From: Halieaceae bacterium
GTDB taxonomy: Bacteria > Pseudomonadota > Gammaproteobacteria > Pseudomonadales > Halieaceae
Reading direction: 5' to 3'
Assembly: GCA_018657645.1 (NCBI GenBank)
Contig: JABHWT010000076.1
Span: 1 to 35,130, forward strand
DNA: 35,130 nt
Position 1 is the first letter of the stretch. The number at the start of each line of letters is the position of its first letter. Below are positions 19,770-27,048 of this stretch, piece after piece. The notes below the pieces were generated by a model. That model made no database searches. It was not told the DNA's origin and saw nothing but the letters and a program-made list of their open reading frames with translations. The position numbers and the translations under genes were made by a program.

Positions 19770-20336
19770 TTATTTCGCTCGGACAAACCTCTTCAGAGCT
19801 GGCATTTCGATAGATGGCAGGTTGGTTCTGTCAACGGTGAAACTCTCGTCTACTAACTCATTGAGGTAGAGGATATATGCTGTTATGGCGTATACCTGGT
19901 TATTACTCAAACTCTTGGGATTAACATGTGGCATGGCTCTTCTAACATAATCAAAAATGGTTGTTGCATAGGGCCACTGTTGTCCGGTGGACATGACAAG
20001 TAGACCATTGACTTCCTGTATCCTCTTAATCCGAAGTGGATCCCAGATGCTAAATAGTCCAACCGAGCCAGTTAAGCGATGAGATGGCCCCTCTGTACCA
20101 CTGTCTCCGTGACATAAGGCACAGCGTTCAAAGTACACCTGTCTTCCCTCGGTGACAGAGCCACGTCCAACAGGCAAATTGTGCCCATTCGGGAAGATTG
20201 TGATATCGACTCGTTCTATCTCAGCCTCTGTCAGAGGCGTGCCCAGATTAACTGATTCTCCAAAGCCGTAACCGGCAATTGGAGCTACCAGGCTTAGCAG
20301 TAGACAACACCATCGGGCTGACTTATACAAAGACAT
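19770..20336 (-). CDS. monohaem cytochrome c, SoxD/SorB-like electron acceptor of the adjacent molybdoenzyme
   Basis: This is a 188-residue exported protein with a signal peptide (hydrophobic 9-24). One haem-binding site CALCH (Cys72, Cys75, His76) is followed by a likely axial Met in RRAMPHVNP (Met135). The lead-in LPVGRGSVTEGRQVYFERC and the order of segments resemble the haem domain of SoxD, but Paracoccus SoxD is about twice as long and dihaem, so this is a shortened partner closer in size to a sulfite dehydrogenase cytochrome subunit. Its start overlaps the end of the soxC-like gene by 14 bases, and GGGAG for its start lies in that gene. It should pass electrons from the molybdenum enzyme to the respiratory chain. 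Confidence 0.85.
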   Translation of the reverse strand: MSLYKSARWCCLLLSLVAPIAGYGFGESVNLGTPLTEAEIERVDITIFPNGHNLPVGRGSVTEGRQVYFERCALCHGDSGTEGPSHRLTGSVGLFSIWDPLRIKRIQEVNGLLVMSTGQQWPYATTIFDYVRRAMPHVNPKSLSNNQVYAITAYILYLNELVDESFTVDRTNLPSIEMPALKRFVRAK

Positions 20337-21609
20337 TGCTCACACTCCCATCTTTGTCTATCTGCCAGGCCTGAATGGCGTTGTAGTGATTGAATGTTGG
20401 GCTTGCGTATTTCTGCTTCCATACTTTCCGGGTCGGTTGAACTCTCCCCTCCTCGTCAATTGCGCGACTTTGTAGAATTGTGGATTCGCCATCCCACCGC
20501 CATGGAATAGAGAATCTGGTGAGGGCTTTATCATGAACAGGACCCTGCAGTTGTGCGCGGGCCCAACTCACTCCGTTATCCGCAGAGACGTCCACACCTG
20601 ATATCTTTCCGCGTCCCGACCACGCCAAGCCGGATATTTCGTAGAACCCTTTTTCATTCAATAACTGCCCTGCGGAGGGATGCATAATGGCGGACTTGAC
20701 CTCCATATGGAAAGAAAAACCCTCTGCATGACCACTGGTTAGATGCTCGGTATAAAGTCCCGATTCGTGGGAGGTAAATGCGGGCCTGTCGGTGACCTCA
20801 AAACGACTTAGGTACTTTACGTTAGTATTACCTTCCCATCCCGGCAGTAAGAGTCTCATCGGAAATCCCTGTTCTGCTCTTAGTCTCTCTCCGTTCTGGT
20901 AGAGGGCTATAATGCCATCATCGAGCATTTTTGACACCGGGATGCTCCTGGAATGTGAACCGCTGTCAGCCCCTTCAGCGATAATCCAACGGGCCTTCTT
21001 TGTTAGCCCCGCCTCACTCAGCAAATCCGAAACCCTGACACCCACCCATTCAGAGCAGGAGACAAGCCCGTACAGGTCCTGGCAAGTTTCATTACCTGTA
21101 AAAGGAGACATTGCATTTATTGCTGTATTTCCGGAACACTCCAGAAACCTGGTGCTGGAGACCATTGGGTAACGCAATAGATGCTCAACCGTATATTTGA
21201 GCGGCCTATCCACCAGTCCATGAATCAGTAATTCATGCTTGTTCGGGTCAATCTCCGGTACACCATAATGATAGCTGCCGAAATGAAGTCCGTTGGGTGT
21301 TATTATTCCCTGCAACTGATCAATGGGAGTAAGCCAAGCCGAAGTGCCGGCATTTTCTGGAGCAGCTGGGAGCAGAAGTTTGCGGACCACACTTTTTTCA
21401 TAGCGCGATGGTTCACCATAGGGGGAACCTTGCCCGGCCAGAGTTTTTGTCCACCGGGGAAAATCCTCAGCTATCGTTTTATCGCCTTCAATTGCCGCCA
21501 CAACTGGGCGGATAGTCGTTGCAGCCAGAAAAGAAACGCCACCGGCCAGTAGCGATCTGCGATCAATTAGGCCGCCGCCCGCAACATACTCTGTTTTCAA
21601 CCGCTTCAT
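20323..21609 (-). CDS. soxC: SoxC-like sulfite/sulfane dehydrogenase, molybdopterin subunit
   Basis: The 428-residue protein has a twin-arginine signal (DRRSLLAGG, Arg17-Arg18, then a hydrophobic run), as expected for a folded molybdenum enzyme exported to the periplasm. RFLECSGN holds Cys158, the expected molybdenum ligand of the sulfite oxidase family. LLPGWEGNTNVKYLSRFEV and a C-terminal dimerisation domain with VDVSADNGVSWARAQL follow. SoxC with SoxD oxidises sulfane sulfur or sulfite. Here it lacks soxA, X, Y, Z and B and lies 52 bases downstream of arsM on the same strand, so another oxyanion-linked role is possible. The gene family is secure; the physiological substrate is open. Confidence 0.9.
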   Translation of the reverse strand: MKRLKTEYVAGGGLIDRRSLLAGGVSFLAATTIRPVVAAIEGDKTIAEDFPRWTKTLAGQGSPYGEPSRYEKSVVRKLLLPAAPENAGTSAWLTPIDQLQGIITPNGLHFGSYHYGVPEIDPNKHELLIHGLVDRPLKYTVEHLLRYPMVSSTRFLECSGNTAINAMSPFTGNETCQDLYGLVSCSEWVGVRVSDLLSEAGLTKKARWIIAEGADSGSHSRSIPVSKMLDDGIIALYQNGERLRAEQGFPMRLLLPGWEGNTNVKYLSRFEVTDRPAFTSHESGLYTEHLTSGHAEGFSFHMEVKSAIMHPSAGQLLNEKGFYEISGLAWSGRGKISGVDVSADNGVSWARAQLQGPVHDKALTRFSIPWRWDGESTILQSRAIDEEGRVQPTRKVWKQKYASPTFNHYNAIQAWQIDKDGSVSNVFV

Positions 21610-21661
21610 AACACGCTCCCTGCATGTAGTTGGCAGGCATCACATAGAGGTCAGCCCATCC

Positions 21662-22513
21662 TCAATCTACCTGCGGTTTTCTGGCAAAAATCTTGGCGCT
21701 ACTGATCTTTCCTTCCATCTGGTGCAGCAAATCATCCAGTAAAACCTCCGCCTCCTTGGGGTCCATTCTATCGAGCAGGTCCGACAACTCCGGCACTTCT
21801 CCCCCTAAAGCAAGCCCTTTAAGGGTAGATGCGTCGTAGGTAAAGCGCTCCAGCACCCGCTCCTGGACCAGCCCGGCAGAGGCCAGATCACGAAGGTATT
21901 TTGCCTCATCTATAGCGCCAGACAAACAGGCATTGTAGAACGCCTCGGGAGCCCATTCAGGCAAGGCTCCCTGCTCCATGATAATATCCGAAACCTGCAT
22001 TGCTCCACCGGGCTTAAGCACTCTGGCTATTTCCGAAAATACTTTTCCTTTGTCCGGCGAAAGATTGATAACGCAATTGGATATCACCCAGTCGACAGAA
22101 TTGTCCTCTACTGGCAGGTTTTCTATCATCCCCTTTCTTACCTCGGCATTGGTAACACCGGCCTTTTCAATATTCTCCCTTGCATGCTCGAGCATGGCGT
22201 CTGTCATATCTACGCCAATAACCCTGCCCTCTGGCCCCACCACTTTTGCTGCCAGAAGCAAGTCAATACCGGCACCCGATCCCAGGTCCAATACTACATC
22301 GCCGGCCTTGACGCCGGCAAACGCCAGAGGATTGCCACAACCAAAGGAGTTCTCTACTGCATCACCGGGAAGTACGGACAGTTCACTGTCCCCATAGTCT
22401 GCCAATTGTGTGATGGCCGACTGTACGGTCGCCGTTTGTTCCTCCGATTCCTGCCTTAGTACCCGGGTGTAGGTTTGGGATATGGACTCGTGTAGTTCGG
22501 TTTTCTCCAGCAT
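21662..22513 (-). CDS. arsM: arsenite S-adenosylmethionine methyltransferase ArsM
   Basis: The 283-residue cytoplasmic enzyme methylates As(III). The SAM site is DLGSGAGID (76-84), and the three cysteines that bind arsenic in ArsM proteins are all present in their usual contexts: Cys59 in SFGCGNP, Cys147 in SNCVINLSPDK and Cys196 in NACLSGA. AAGGAG lies six bases before the ATG at 22511-22513, which fixes this start; an upstream in-frame ATG at 22633 would overlap arsR and is rejected. It follows the ArsR-type gene by 19 bases and precedes the soxC-like gene by 52, so the three appear to form one operon. Confidence 0.93.
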   Translation of the reverse strand: MLEKTELHESISQTYTRVLRQESEEQTATVQSAITQLADYGDSELSVLPGDAVENSFGCGNPLAFAGVKAGDVVLDLGSGAGIDLLLAAKVVGPEGRVIGVDMTDAMLEHARENIEKAGVTNAEVRKGMIENLPVEDNSVDWVISNCVINLSPDKGKVFSEIARVLKPGGAMQVSDIIMEQGALPEWAPEAFYNACLSGAIDEAKYLRDLASAGLVQERVLERFTYDASTLKGLALGGEVPELSDLLDRMDPKEAEVLLDDLLHQMEGKISSAKIFARKPQVD

Positions 22514-22532
22514 GGATATCTCCTTTACGTAT

Positions 22533-22892
22533 TTAGCTGTCACCAACGGGTATGCAGCACTCCGCCATGCACTGGCGAATTTGTGCGGCAATTGATTCCG
22601 TTTTTTCCAAGAAATAGTTGCTGTCGACATCAAAATAGATGTGCCGGCTCTCTTTAGTTCGCGTCACCAGTCCAGCGGCCAACATAGTGCCAAGGTGGCG
22701 AGAGATAACAGACCGATCCTGGGGCATGCACTGGGCAATAGTGCCGATATCACAGCAACCATTGAGCATTAGAAATTTTAAAATCTGCACCCGAACCGGC
22801 TCAGCCAGCGCCTTAAAAAAACCAGAATCCAGTTCCTGTGCCAGTTTTTCAGCGGCCTGACTCCTTCGTTTAGAATCTGTATATGTATTCAT
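22533..22892 (-). CDS. ArsR/SmtB-family metalloid-responsive repressor
   Basis: The 119-residue winged-helix regulator has FKALAEPVRVQILKFL (26-41) and the recognition helix DRSVISRHLGTMLAAGLV (59-76). The classical ELCVCDL metal box is replaced by NGCCDI with Cys46 and Cys47, Cys55 follows, and another pair sits at the C-terminus (Cys108, Cys112, Cys113). This looks like a different thiol site for As(III) or Sb(III). It heads the arsM-soxC-cytochrome group, as expected for autoregulation. The start ATG has a weak Shine-Dalgarno, and palindromes just upstream may be its operator. Confidence 0.9.
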   Translation of the reverse strand: MNTYTDSKRRSQAAEKLAQELDSGFFKALAEPVRVQILKFLMLNGCCDIGTIAQCMPQDRSVISRHLGTMLAAGLVTRTKESRHIYFDVDSNYFLEKTESIAAQIRQCMAECCIPVGDS

Positions 22893-23271
22893 ATCATAAG
22901 TTTATGTGCACATAGATGCACATGTCAAATATTAGTTTGATGTGAAAGGTCACTTTGTGAAACCGGAAATTACTCGTACACGCCCTGCATTTACGCTCCT
23001 ATATCAGAAGCAGTACTCTGCCCGGAGATCGGCACCAGGGGCAGAACTTCGGAATACCTTCCAGTCCTTAGCTGCTGGAAGGGGGTCTGTATCCACAATA
23101 GCAAAAGGCGCAGCCATTCATAGCATATTGCCGCATCTGATGAACTGTCTATTTATAACCCGGCACAAGACCGCAGCAAGTGGTTGTATGCGGCCAAATG
23201 TGTATACTGGATTGGATAAAAAAGGTGGCATTTGTTCCTCTTGGACTTTACTGATTATAAGGCACTGATTG
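22893..23271. other. intergenic stretch between divergent arsR-type and fusion-protein genes
   Basis: Apart from the palindromes next to arsR, this 379-base stretch has a stem of 8 bp (CCTTCCAG 23057-23064 / CTGGAAGG 23075-23082, loop 10) with no T-run, and a TATACT (23203-23208) that could be the -10 box for the rightward gene. A short plus-strand frame (about 23124-23219) reads like protein but is stopped at both ends. I find no convincing gene. Confidence 0.4.
22895..22914. promoter_or_regulatory. overlapping palindromes upstream of the ArsR-type gene, candidate operator
   Basis: CATAAGTTTATG (22895-22906, arms CATAA/TTATG) overlaps the perfect palindrome TATGTGCACATA (22903-22914), immediately before the ATG of the ArsR-family gene. 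A further ATGCACATG follows. ArsR-type repressors bind dyads of this size over their own promoter. No experiment supports it here. Confidence 0.5.
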
Positions 23272-25560
23272 ATGGCAAATGACAAGCAAGGGCTGTTCAA
23301 CAAGCTAAGAGCCCACCCGGTAATACGGGCTGGGACTACCTACGCGGCCGCGGCTTTCCTTATCGTTCAGGTTATAGGCCTTATAGCTGACAGCTTTGGC
23401 TTTGGCGACAACCTGATGCAGGGCGTAATTTGGGCAAGTTTTGCTGGATTCCCAGTGGTTATCTTACTGTCGCTGATTATTTCTTCTCACTTCAGTACCT
23501 TGAAACTTTTATTAATCACGGTACTACTTGTTACCGGCGGATATCTAGGTGGAGCTTTTTACTGGGTGCAATTTGTCAAATCGCCAGAACTTGAAACCGC
23601 ATTGAGCAAAGATCAATATGCCAAGTCCTGGATCATCGCCCGAGACATGAGTCAGGTATTTCCATTTTTGCCACAACTGGACCAAGCTCTTTCACAACTG
23701 GGAAGGCCAGCAAAAATTGAAATAATGCAAAATGGCGTAGATGTTTATTGGAAGCCTTTTGCATCAGACGAATACCATTGGGAGTTTTTGGGAACTTCGC
23801 CGCTAGACCCACAAAATCTACCTGTTGGCCCATTGCAATTTCGGTTGGAAAAAGAAGGTTTTCAAACCGCCTACCTAGGCGCAAACAATCCGAGCCTTGC
23901 ATTGAAAAACTTTCCAGTGAAATTGGAATTTGAGGCTAGTAAGTTTGAACTTGCCAAGGATGACGATGTACCAGAGGGGATGGTATATATTCCGGGTGGG
24001 GAGTTTTTGCCTGCCATTACCGGCGAGGGATTAACGTCTTATGTGCTCAGCCCTTACTACATCGATAAGTACGAAGTTACTAACAAGCAGTTTAAACAGT
24101 TTGTTGATGCCCAGGGCTACAAAAACCCCCGCTACTGGCAAGACACAACCTTTATTAACGACGGTAGAACGTTGAGCCTTGAACAAGCCTTAACACTGAT
24201 GGTTGACCAAACCGGCCGAAACGCACCGGCTAGTTGGGAGCTGGCAGACTACCCAGAAGGTAGCGATGACCTGCCTGTTACTGGCATTAGCTGGTACGAA
24301 GCCCAAGCCTACGCTAATTATAAAGGCAATACTCTGCCGCCACTATATCATTGGGCAAAGGCTGCATTCCCCGTCGATGAAGTTGTCTCGCCACTGGCTC
24401 CTGCAATTTTGGCAAATAGTAATTTTGCCGGCAAAGAATTACGGCGGGTTAGCCAATCTGTATCCATCGGCCCATACGGTACGTTTGATATGGCTGGTAA
24501 TGCACGCGAGTGGGTTTGGAATATCTTTGGGGGCGAGGGAATCACCATAGGTGGTGCAATTGCAGAGCGCCAATATATGGGGTTTCAAAGTGAATCTAGA
24601 CCAAGAATAGACAGGTCTGCGCACAATGGTTTTAGAACCGTAAAACTATTAAATCCCGCTGATATGAACCCATTTGGCGATCCCCTATCACTCCCCGCCC
24701 TTCCGCCCAAGGACTTTTACCAGCCCATGGATGCCAAGGCGTTTAAATTTTATTCACAACCTTACTCCTACGGAAAGCGCAAGCTAAATGCCAAAACGGC
24801 TTATGTTGAGGAAAACCATGATGACTGGATAAAAGAGAAGGTCTCTGTCGAGGTTGGTTACAATAACGAGCGCATGGATATTCTTATTTTCAGGCCCAAA
24901 AACATCTCTAGCAATATAGGTTCAGTGGTTTTTTATCCCGGCTTGGGTGCTTTTCGCTTTCCGGGGCCTCTCGACAAAATAAATCCGGGAGATTTTGGTT
25001 TAGATTATATTATTAAGAGTGGTCGAGCGCTGATATTGCCAGCTTTTAAGGAATCTCGAAATCGCTCAACCGATCCCTCCTTTCTTGACGCGGCTACCGA
25101 CGAGCAAAAAAGAGTGTTCAGAGACACCATGACTAAATGGCGCATAGATACCGGCCGGGTATTAGACTACATAGAGGAGCGGCCAGAGTTCAGCGACCAG
25201 AACATCCACTATATGGGCATGAGCTTTGGCGCTATATATACTCCAATAGTGCTGTTATTTGAGCAGCGGCGTTTTAAATCTGCAGTATACTTAAGCGGGG
25301 GTCTTGACCCATATAAGCCTCCACTCTCCGATGGCATTGTTTATCAGAACAGGATAAAAACCCCAACGCTTATGCTAAATGGTGAGCAAGATTATTTAAT
25401 GCCCATTAGTGGCCAGCAGGCGCTGTTTGACTTATTGGGCGCCGCGCCCAGCGACAAAAAGTACATTGCCTATGACGCAGGGCACTGGCCGTTACCGCGA
25501 AACCAAATGGTTAATGAGGTTTTGGCCTGGTTTGAAAAATATGAGAGTTTGCGGCCCTGA
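23272..25560 (+). CDS. membrane-anchored PEGA-like / FGE-sulfatase-like / alpha-beta hydrolase fusion
   Basis: This 762-residue protein starts at ATG 23272 (AAGG nine bases before; a TTG sits just upstream). Residues 1-18 are cytosolic and basic, followed by three membrane helices (about 22-41, 50-70, 78-98). A PEGA-like domain (150-222, with NLPVGPLQFRLEKEGF) leads to an FGE/SUMF1-like domain (232-460: MVYIPGGEF, YYIDKYEVTNKQF, GISWYEAQAYANYKG, GTFDMAGNAREWVW, HNGFR). The C-terminal ~230 residues are an alpha/beta hydrolase with GMSFG (nucleophile Ser651), Asp707 and His738. The whole protein has no cysteine, so true formylglycine-generating chemistry is impossible in the SUMF1-like part. 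Its composition looks more A/T-rich than its neighbours, which hints at transfer. Confidence 0.85.
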   Translation: MANDKQGLFNKLRAHPVIRAGTTYAAAAFLIVQVIGLIADSFGFGDNLMQGVIWASFAGFPVVILLSLIISSHFSTLKLLLITVLLVTGGYLGGAFYWVQFVKSPELETALSKDQYAKSWIIARDMSQVFPFLPQLDQALSQLGRPAKIEIMQNGVDVYWKPFASDEYHWEFLGTSPLDPQNLPVGPLQFRLEKEGFQTAYLGANNPSLALKNFPVKLEFEASKFELAKDDDVPEGMVYIPGGEFLPAITGEGLTSYVLSPYYIDKYEVTNKQFKQFVDAQGYKNPRYWQDTTFINDGRTLSLEQALTLMVDQTGRNAPASWELADYPEGSDDLPVTGISWYEAQAYANYKGNTLPPLYHWAKAAFPVDEVVSPLAPAILANSNFAGKELRRVSQSVSIGPYGTFDMAGNAREWVWNIFGGEGITIGGAIAERQYMGFQSESRPRIDRSAHNGFRTVKLLNPADMNPFGDPLSLPALPPKDFYQPMDAKAFKFYSQPYSYGKRKLNAKTAYVEENHDDWIKEKVSVEVGYNNERMDILIFRPKNISSNIGSVVFYPGLGAFRFPGPLDKINPGDFGLDYIIKSGRALILPAFKESRNRSTDPSFLDAATDEQKRVFRDTMTKWRIDTGRVLDYIEERPEFSDQNIHYMGMSFGAIYTPIVLLFEQRRFKSAVYLSGGLDPYKPPLSDGIVYQNRIKTPTLMLNGEQDYLMPISGQQALFDLLGAAPSDKKYIAYDAGHWPLPRNQMVNEVLAWFEKYESLRP

Positions 25561-26340: not shown

Positions 26341-27048
26341 TTATATTTTTCCCTTCAGATAATTCTGCCGCCTGGATTCCGGCATTTTCTCTATAGCATA
26401 CCGGAGCATGGTGCGAGGCATGTTTCTGTAGTGCGTTTTCAGGAATTTCTCCATTTCATGAGCATCTTTTTTCCACGCCTCTCTCAACATCCACCCCACT
26501 GCCTTATGGATTAAGTCGTGTTCATCTTTCAGCAAAATGTGCGCAATTTCAAATACGTTACTCAGGTCCCCATTTCGTATAAACCACCAGTTCGCTATCA
26601 TCGCAATTCGCCGAGTCCACAGGTCGTCTGAAGCAGCCCAGGCATAGAGAATACTTCGGTCCCGCTCCATCAGGTGCCTCCCAACAATGTGGGGACAGGT
26701 TACATCGACAAGATCCCAGTTATTAATATACTGGAAGCTGGCAACATAGACCTGATAGAGTTTCTCTCTATCAGCCACGGATTTACAAATGGCGTACTTA
26801 TTAACAAGGATGATGAGTCCCAGAAGTCGCTCCTCGTGGTATCTGGATTTTATAAGCGCTTTCGTATCTTTTATGCTCAACTGATTATGACTTTTCGCTG
26901 TTTTTCTTATAATTGGAACCCTTATACCCAGGAAAAGATCACCGGCCCCATACTCCCCCTTTCCCGTTTTAAAAAACCTCTGGCTATGCGCCGCAATTTT
27001 CTTGCTTCCGCACGCTCTGAAATCCTTTTGAATCTGCAAGGTCTTCAT
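26341..27048 (-). CDS. AlkD-like DNA alkylation repair protein
   Basis: The 235-residue, mostly helical protein has the HEAT-like repeat organisation of the AlkD family: KGEYGAGDLFLGIRVPIIRK near the N-terminus, YHEERLLGLIILVNKY, NNWDLVDVTCPHIVGRHL with the Trp-Asp pair typical of this family, and LWTRRIAMIANWWFIRNG followed by HDLIHKAVGWMLREAWKKD. AlkD DNA glycosylases remove cationic N3- and N7-alkylpurines. It is the third gene of a minus-strand run, 32 bases after the IsdG-like gene. It looks more A/T-rich than most of the window. Confidence 0.87.
   Translation of the reverse strand: MKTLQIQKDFRACGSKKIAAHSQRFFKTGKGEYGAGDLFLGIRVPIIRKTAKSHNQLSIKDTKALIKSRYHEERLLGLIILVNKYAICKSVADREKLYQVYVASFQYINNWDLVDVTCPHIVGRHLMERDRSILYAWAASDDLWTRRIAMIANWWFIRNGDLSNVFEIAHILLKDEHDLIHKAVGWMLREAWKKDAHEMEKFLKTHYRNMPRTMLRYAIEKMPESRRQNYLKGKI

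Follow-up and report, generated by a model that had tools for sequence, protein, structure and literature searches.

The window analysed here, a stretch of 35,130 nucleotides from a Halieaceae bacterium, encodes a protein that can be read, with moderate confidence, as a membrane-tethered serine (ester) hydrolase facing the periplasm and related to receptor proteins. In the proposed mechanism, a two-helix hairpin and a third helix would anchor the protein, with residues ~113-762 exposed on the outer side. In this exposed part, an FGE/EgtB-like domain lacking the cysteine pair and a PEGA-like module would hold or present a ligand beside the hydrolase, which would use its Ser-Asp-His triad to cleave, most likely, a carboxylic ester bond or a comparable acyl bond. 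In relatives, the same outer unit is joined to a kinase, a winged helix, a TIR domain or a cyclase, and would there serve as the ectodomain of a receptor that binds its ligand, cleaves it, or does both. The features are collected in Table 1.

Table 1. Position of the gene, its protein parts and the adjoining repeat in the window
Feature	Residues	Window position	Strand	Basis or remark
Dispersed repeat copy, ~70-75 bp		23168..23242	+	Just upstream of the gene, outside the protein
Whole gene	762 plus stop	23272..25560	+	ATG at 23272; no Cys
Two-helix membrane hairpin	16-71	23317..23484	+	Hydropathy and model; site of kinase, wHTH and TIR heads in relatives
Third helix	76-112	23497..23607	+	Equivalent of the single TM helix accompanying the outer unit under other heads
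Helical hairpin and PEGA-like beta-module	116-230	23617..23961	+	Pfam, relatives, model
FGE/EgtB-like domain (FGE fold), without Cys pair	235-460	23974..24651	+	Pfam, NCBIfam, fold match
Alpha/beta-hydrolase with linker	478-757	24703..25542	+	Ser651 in GMSFGA, Asp707, His738

The gene and its reading frame

The gene is the single full-length match in its genome, a 5.4-Mb assembly of 491 contigs, 89% complete, in which the window is C205:1-35130. Translation of the ORF bears out the first-pass annotation, which had described a protein of 762 residues without any cysteine. The chance estimate for such a protein is 0.99^762, or about 5e-4, and the 20 other listed genes of the window encode 0.44-2.31% cysteine. 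Sequence comparison indicates that the frame is genuine, because orthologues at 46-61% identity exist and SAR86-type pairs have low dN/dS. The orthologues comprise ten intact copies (L035-L043 and L045), eight titled SAR86 and two titled just Gammaproteobacteria. The whole architecture is common to them, so that the fusion proposed earlier is conserved. They resemble the window protein in length, anchor, domain order, absence of cysteine (10/10) and triad but differ from it in their neighbours and in their low-GC loci (33-37% in the seven measured). The proteins encoded next to them in the ten loci contain 1.05% cysteine over 26,809 residues. A further SAR86 copy (L044:5004-7238) is split in three frames, possibly by sequencing errors; an adjoining frame in this MAG is split too.

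In the three of four SAR86-type pairs with estimable dS, dN/dS was 0.035-0.058 for the hydrolase part (dS high, 1.3-1.8) and 0.047-0.061 for the FGE-like part (dS also high); in the fourth pair, both parts were too saturated for an estimate. These two are the most constrained of the four protein parts in the three judgeable pairs, and both are under strong purifying selection in SAR86-type pairs.

Membrane anchor and topology

Hydropathy peaks and the AlphaFold model agree on three membrane helices (residues 16-42, 46-71 and 76-112), the number given by the first-pass annotation. Residues 1-15 contain three Lys or Arg against one Asp or Glu. The loop between helices 2 and 3 is short and uncharged, so that positive-inside support for the topology comes from the N-terminus alone. 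The relatives provide another argument. Kinase and winged-helix heads must be cytoplasmic, and with one TM helix the common unit then lies outside; a hairpin plus this TM helix brings the remainder of the window protein to the same side. Residues ~113-762 would be periplasmic, with the N-terminus inside, and the SUMF1-like and enzyme parts probably face outward from the inner membrane. A comparable hairpin is present at the start of TPR, AAA/STAND and TolB_N-like proteins in other genomes.

In the family alignment, cysteine accounts for 134 of 50,011 residues in the outer part versus 140 of 21,981 in the N-terminal parts, a low content that may be weakly compatible with export. A conserved disulfide was considered as topology evidence and dropped. 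The commonest outer cysteine positions, 415 (42 of 78 rows) and 456 (40 of 78), are non-catalytic and independent, with both occupied in 21 rows and neither in 17 (Fisher p 0.82); without co-occurrence, they offer no sign of a disulfide that would point to an oxidising compartment.

The PEGA-like module and the FGE-like domain

The PEGA-like part is mostly beta in the model, with the beta-module at residues 144-206 after two short helices. The Pfam PEGA match of the window protein (12.0 bits, E 0.21) lies under the cut-off of 20.8, while two relatives give 27.3 bits (L071, over the cut-off) and 20.1 bits (L046). The PDB fold search barely probes the residues before 235.

The FGE-sulfatase-like domain was recognized correctly from the sequence. 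Pfam PF03781 matches residues 235-420 with an E value of 2.4e-25 (90 bits versus a cut-off of 23.3), and FGE structures are among the top Foldseek matches of the model. The nearest PDB fold of residues 235-460 is EgtB (Z 22.8, rmsd 2.3, 209 aligned), which is also the best NCBIfam match of the protein, at 63.6 bits versus a cut-off of 360. The fold is thus like those of both the formylglycine-generating enzyme (SUMF1) and EgtB, but the window protein lacks the redox cysteine pair of the former and the DinB domain of the latter, which Pfam did not find at E<=1.

The catalytic or redox cysteines of FGE are spaced as C-x4-C. This motif occurs in the FGE-like part of none of the 78 aligned family rows, including the orthologues in which active-site cysteines had been named as a point against the earlier reading. 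One row of the 78 (L102) has a lone cysteine in the stretch expected to hold the pair. Conservation of cysteine loss holds in part: all 11 members of the clade formed by the window and SAR86-type proteins are free of cysteine, but only 14 of the 78 rows are so in total, and what is family-wide is the absence of the pair. This absence upholds the view that the SUMF1-like part is not an oxygenase of the known FGE kind, although FGE domains without the cysteines are already known (PMC5915273). The domain may hold a ligand or a surface.

The hydrolase domain

Both the FGE-like and hydrolase folds are supported by the AlphaFold2 model (pLDDT 91, pTM 0.85), for which 73 rows served as input and L004, L033, L055, L059 and L076 were left out. 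Residues 434-761 are closest to CE7 acetyl esterases, with a VIA-align Z of 23.8 to 3fyt (rmsd 2.9, 258 aligned), and the family profile also matched PETases or polyester hydrolases, the esterase 4ao6 and an MHETase in the PDB. An alpha/beta-hydrolase fold is therefore predicted in the C-terminal part, whose lack of such a fold had been listed as a possible refutation. CE7 enzymes carry the motifs RGQ, GxSQGG and HE. Although the CE7 acetyl xylan esterases/cephalosporin C deacetylases are the nearest solved fold for residues 434-760, identity is 12-20% and these motifs are absent from the window protein, which has GMSFGA and GHW, so that the likeness is one of fold only. Pfam hydrolase families remain below their cut-offs in the window protein (Abhydrolase_1 21.7/25.8 and Peptidase_S9 21.3/22.6), and the SAR86-type orthologue L037 exceeds them for Peptidase_S9 (23.7/22.6) and DLH (21.2/21).

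Over the 78 rows, the nucleophile is Ser in 77, Asp is found in all and His in 77, L046 stopping before it. The triad is complete in 76 of the 77 rows readable at all three positions, and the exception has Cys for Ser. This row, L053, reads GVCFGA at the nucleophile, and its N-terminus is cut by a contig end. With its conserved triad and predicted fold, the full Ser-Asp-His hydrolase of the first-pass annotation stands, and the model supports an alpha/beta-hydrolase with an apparently intact triad.

Exchangeable cytoplasmic heads

Pfam (E<=0.01) identified N-terminal heads in many of 77 relatives: Pkinase in 51, Trans_reg_C in four, TIR_2 in two, and guanylate cyclase and BTAD in one each; the scan patterns were built from three sequences, and these counts are not natural frequencies. 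A TolB_N head is present in two relatives, under the Pfam cut-off, and 14 have the hairpin anchor only, as labelled from their sequences. The labels of L104 (TIR, no Pfam match) and L113 (BTAD) were given by eye, and L050, unlabelled in the tree, was later assigned to Trans_reg_C, a head of the ToxR/CadC type.

The Ser/Thr kinase relatives, many of them from Acidobacteriota (e.g., L047 and L092), have the same TM helix, outer unit and triad at about 30-38% identity, but carry a Pkinase head of ~300 residues in place of the hairpin; the window protein has no Pkinase match. Similarly, winged-helix (L004, L033, L114, L050) and TIR members (L046, L071) combine the same TM helix and outer unit with a Trans_reg_C or TIR_2 head. 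The two TIR_2 proteins contain TM, PEGA-like, FGE-like and hydrolase parts (L046 ends early), and it is possible that they are membrane receptors with a TIR output.

In a tree of the outer unit, computed by a quick method with SH-aLRT support only and including 18 rows of odd amino-acid make-up, the head labels need 13 changes versus 25.7 in shuffles. The window protein groups with L035 and L036 (support 99) as part of a clade of 11 in which all members carry the anchor (100); this clade is nested in a set of 19 (100) in which TIR, kinase and TolB_N-like heads also occur. Two pairs locate the point of exchange. In L055 (anchor plus TolB_N-like) and L058 (kinase), identity is 82% over a region that starts ~26-29 residues ahead of the TM helix and runs to the end, and no similarity between them was found upstream of this region. 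For L089 (cyclase) and L104 (TIR-like by eye), the shared region starts ~48 residues ahead of the TM helix, with 58% identity from there onward. Because the shared regions begin ahead of the TM helix, the swapped segment stops short of the membrane, and helix 3 corresponds to the TM helix of the family itself. The sequences thus indicate that the head has been swapped repeatedly, in one case between copies that share 82% identity downstream. The earlier proposal that a membrane anchor takes the place of the kinase needs to be narrowed: 51 of 77 relatives do have a kinase there, but just helices 1 and 2 replace the head.

Distribution of the family

Scanning of genome contigs yielded 259 confirmed loci, of which the best 80 by similarity to the window protein were analysed. 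The 78-row alignment excludes L044 (in pieces) and L078, L081, L097 and L108 (short) and includes L004, L033 and the window protein; some of its rows, such as L053, L056 and L113, are cut by contig ends. Among these best 80 of 259 loci, the distant relatives are 29-38% identical to the window protein, typically over residues ~98-757. Of the 69 non-SAR86-type loci in this set, 41 are titled Acidobacteriota or subgroups, the others belong to Gemmatimonadota, Bacteroidota, Gammaproteobacteria and further groups, and 53 have frames of 850-1100 residues.

In the taxonomic family of the window, a close match was found in 3 of 140 genomes, including the genome of the window itself. The other two members, L004 and L033, are 31% identical and have a Trans_reg_C winged helix replacing the anchor. 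Samples of the class (369 genomes, E<=1e-20) and the phylum (398 genomes, E<=1e-15) contained no match besides the genome of the window. L035 comes from the SAR86 genome G916; in a sample of 151 genomes of its order, 11 match, one through a fragment of ~130 residues and six being known beforehand. This patchy occurrence (3/140 and 11/151) marks the gene as accessory. In the phylum of G924 (titled Acidobacteria, the source of L047), 149 genomes were sampled with a hydrolase-only profile (A6, built from 36 rows); 19 of them contained 26 matches, of which 21 lie in frames of 849-1428 residues and five in frames of 341-467. A viral origin was rejected, as scans of viral contigs confirmed no relative. 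Among plasmids, 18 records were obtained, none spanning 80% of the query; the 15 listed lay in or near the FGE-like part, and two weak records contained the hydrolase part.

Genomic surroundings

The gene has 46.7% GC versus 51.5% in its flanks, and its GC3 of 47% is the lowest of the 21 listed genes. Eleven related genomes, including two from the same genus, have no DNA match to the 12 kb around it. With a tetranucleotide distance of 0.22, the 5-kb bin 20001-25000, in which most of the gene lies, exceeds the contigs of the genome itself. For the whole window, the distance to nine contigs of the genome is 0.107 (theirs being 0.101-0.186) versus 0.603 to SAR86 L035. The position inside the SAR86-type clade and the deviating composition of the gene suggest that it has likely been transferred between lineages.

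Upstream of the gene, the dispersed repeat is one of 21 matches in the genome, several of the others being nearly identical to each other; their flanks are unrelated. From its sequence, it resembles a small element of mobile or repetitive type. A structured element was considered and rejected (DNA fold z -0.55), and Rfam gave no match in the window. Divergent from the gene, the minus strand at 20323-22892 encodes in succession an ArsR-type regulator (22533-22892), a SAM methyltransferase (21662-22633) that looks ArsM-like by eye, and a molybdopterin oxidoreductase of the sulfite-oxidase type (20323-21609). A DNA alkylation repair enzyme (26341-27048, minus strand) has the lowest GC of the 21 listed genes (44.9%), and this gene and the low-GC gene studied here possibly form one imported segment.

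In eight of the ten intact SAR86-type loci (L037-L043 and L045), the gene is divergent from a conserved block encoding a CMD-family protein, an acyl-CoA synthetase, a TauD dioxygenase and an EamA transporter. No signalling protein was present among ten SAR86 neighbours scanned (seven of L045 and three of L035). The gene neighbours were also considered as a guide to the substrate; they differ between the window and SAR86 and give no consistent hint.

Possible functions

The window/SAR86-type form is probably an enzyme in its own right, because it has no cytoplasmic output domain and its outer part is under strong purifying selection. The head-bearing relatives are presumably receptors, which raises an alternative of lower but appreciable probability, namely that the anchored form is still a receptor. 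It would signal through its TM helices to a cytoplasmic partner, or in oligomers with hairpin-anchored proteins, the hydrolase being the sensing step. The kinase, TIR, winged-helix and cyclase heads of related copies fit this reading, as do the triad preserved under them and the likeness of the hairpin to the starts of TPR, AAA/STAND and TolB_N-like proteins, but the surroundings of the SAR86-type copies are metabolic in eight of ten loci and free of signalling proteins among the ten neighbours scanned.

An unlikely reading is that of a structural or surface-binding protein, in which the PEGA-like and FGE-like parts would attach to polymers of the cell wall or outer surface, with a hydrolase that is vestigial or serves only as a binding fold. 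A vestigial domain would be at odds with a triad that is almost always complete and with the hydrolase and FGE-like parts being the most constrained in the judgeable pairs. In its favour are the PEGA-like module and the loss of the cysteine pair of the enzyme, and fungal OCTIN FGE domains without catalytic cysteines form crystals, according to PMC5915273. It is very improbable that the gene is an artefact, either of a contig misbinned from another organism such as SAR86 or of an assembly join that created the fusion. The nearest relatives are indeed of SAR86 type, and the low GC and GC3, the 12 kb without a match and the deviating 5-kb bin could be taken in this sense. However, the window fits the host contigs in tetranucleotide composition and is far from SAR86 L035, the repeat adjoining the gene recurs at 20 other places of the host genome, and the fusion is seen in many independent assemblies.

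With the membrane-tethered enzyme as the preferred reading of the window/SAR86-type form, the retention of the triad under different heads argues for hydrolysis as the sensing step in the relatives, by analogy with D14/KAI2 and RsbQ. These are soluble hydrolase receptors. A more speculative and rather doubtful extension would be a widespread class of transmembrane enzyme-receptors, which sense through hydrolysis of a ligand or acylation by it, exchange their heads, and have been stripped to a tethered enzyme in SAR86-type bacteria and the genome of the window.

Relation to known systems

Bacterial FGE domains without catalytic cysteines, with kinase, caspase, DinB and PEGA extensions, have already been described (PMC5915273). 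The OCTIN superfamily treated there likewise has an FGE domain without catalytic cysteines and N-terminal extensions, some with kinase or PEGA, but no hydrolase partner domain is mentioned in the passages available, unlike the window protein. Metacaspase-FGE proteins (PMC3501461) and FGS domains in conflict systems (PMC7159879) have also been described. No mention of formylglycine or PEGA was found in the available part of the paper on the PknS kinase (PMC13147305), nor of FGE or PEGA in that of a kinase review (PMC6213207). Searches of titles and beginnings of abstracts, several of them with broad and noisy queries and all with thin coverage of subscription journals, returned no description of the FGE-hydrolase outer unit, the head exchange or the headless SAR86-type form. 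While FGE domains lacking the cysteine pair and joined to kinase or PEGA are known, these three features are apparently new.

The finding provides a function-bearing context for FGE-domain proteins annotated as 'SUMF1/EgtB/PvdO family' but belonging to neither FGE nor EgtB. As a natural experiment, the headless SAR86-type form parts the outer function from signalling. The triad is kept almost always under six kinds of cytoplasmic head, which raises the question of whether these bacteria sense by hydrolysis.
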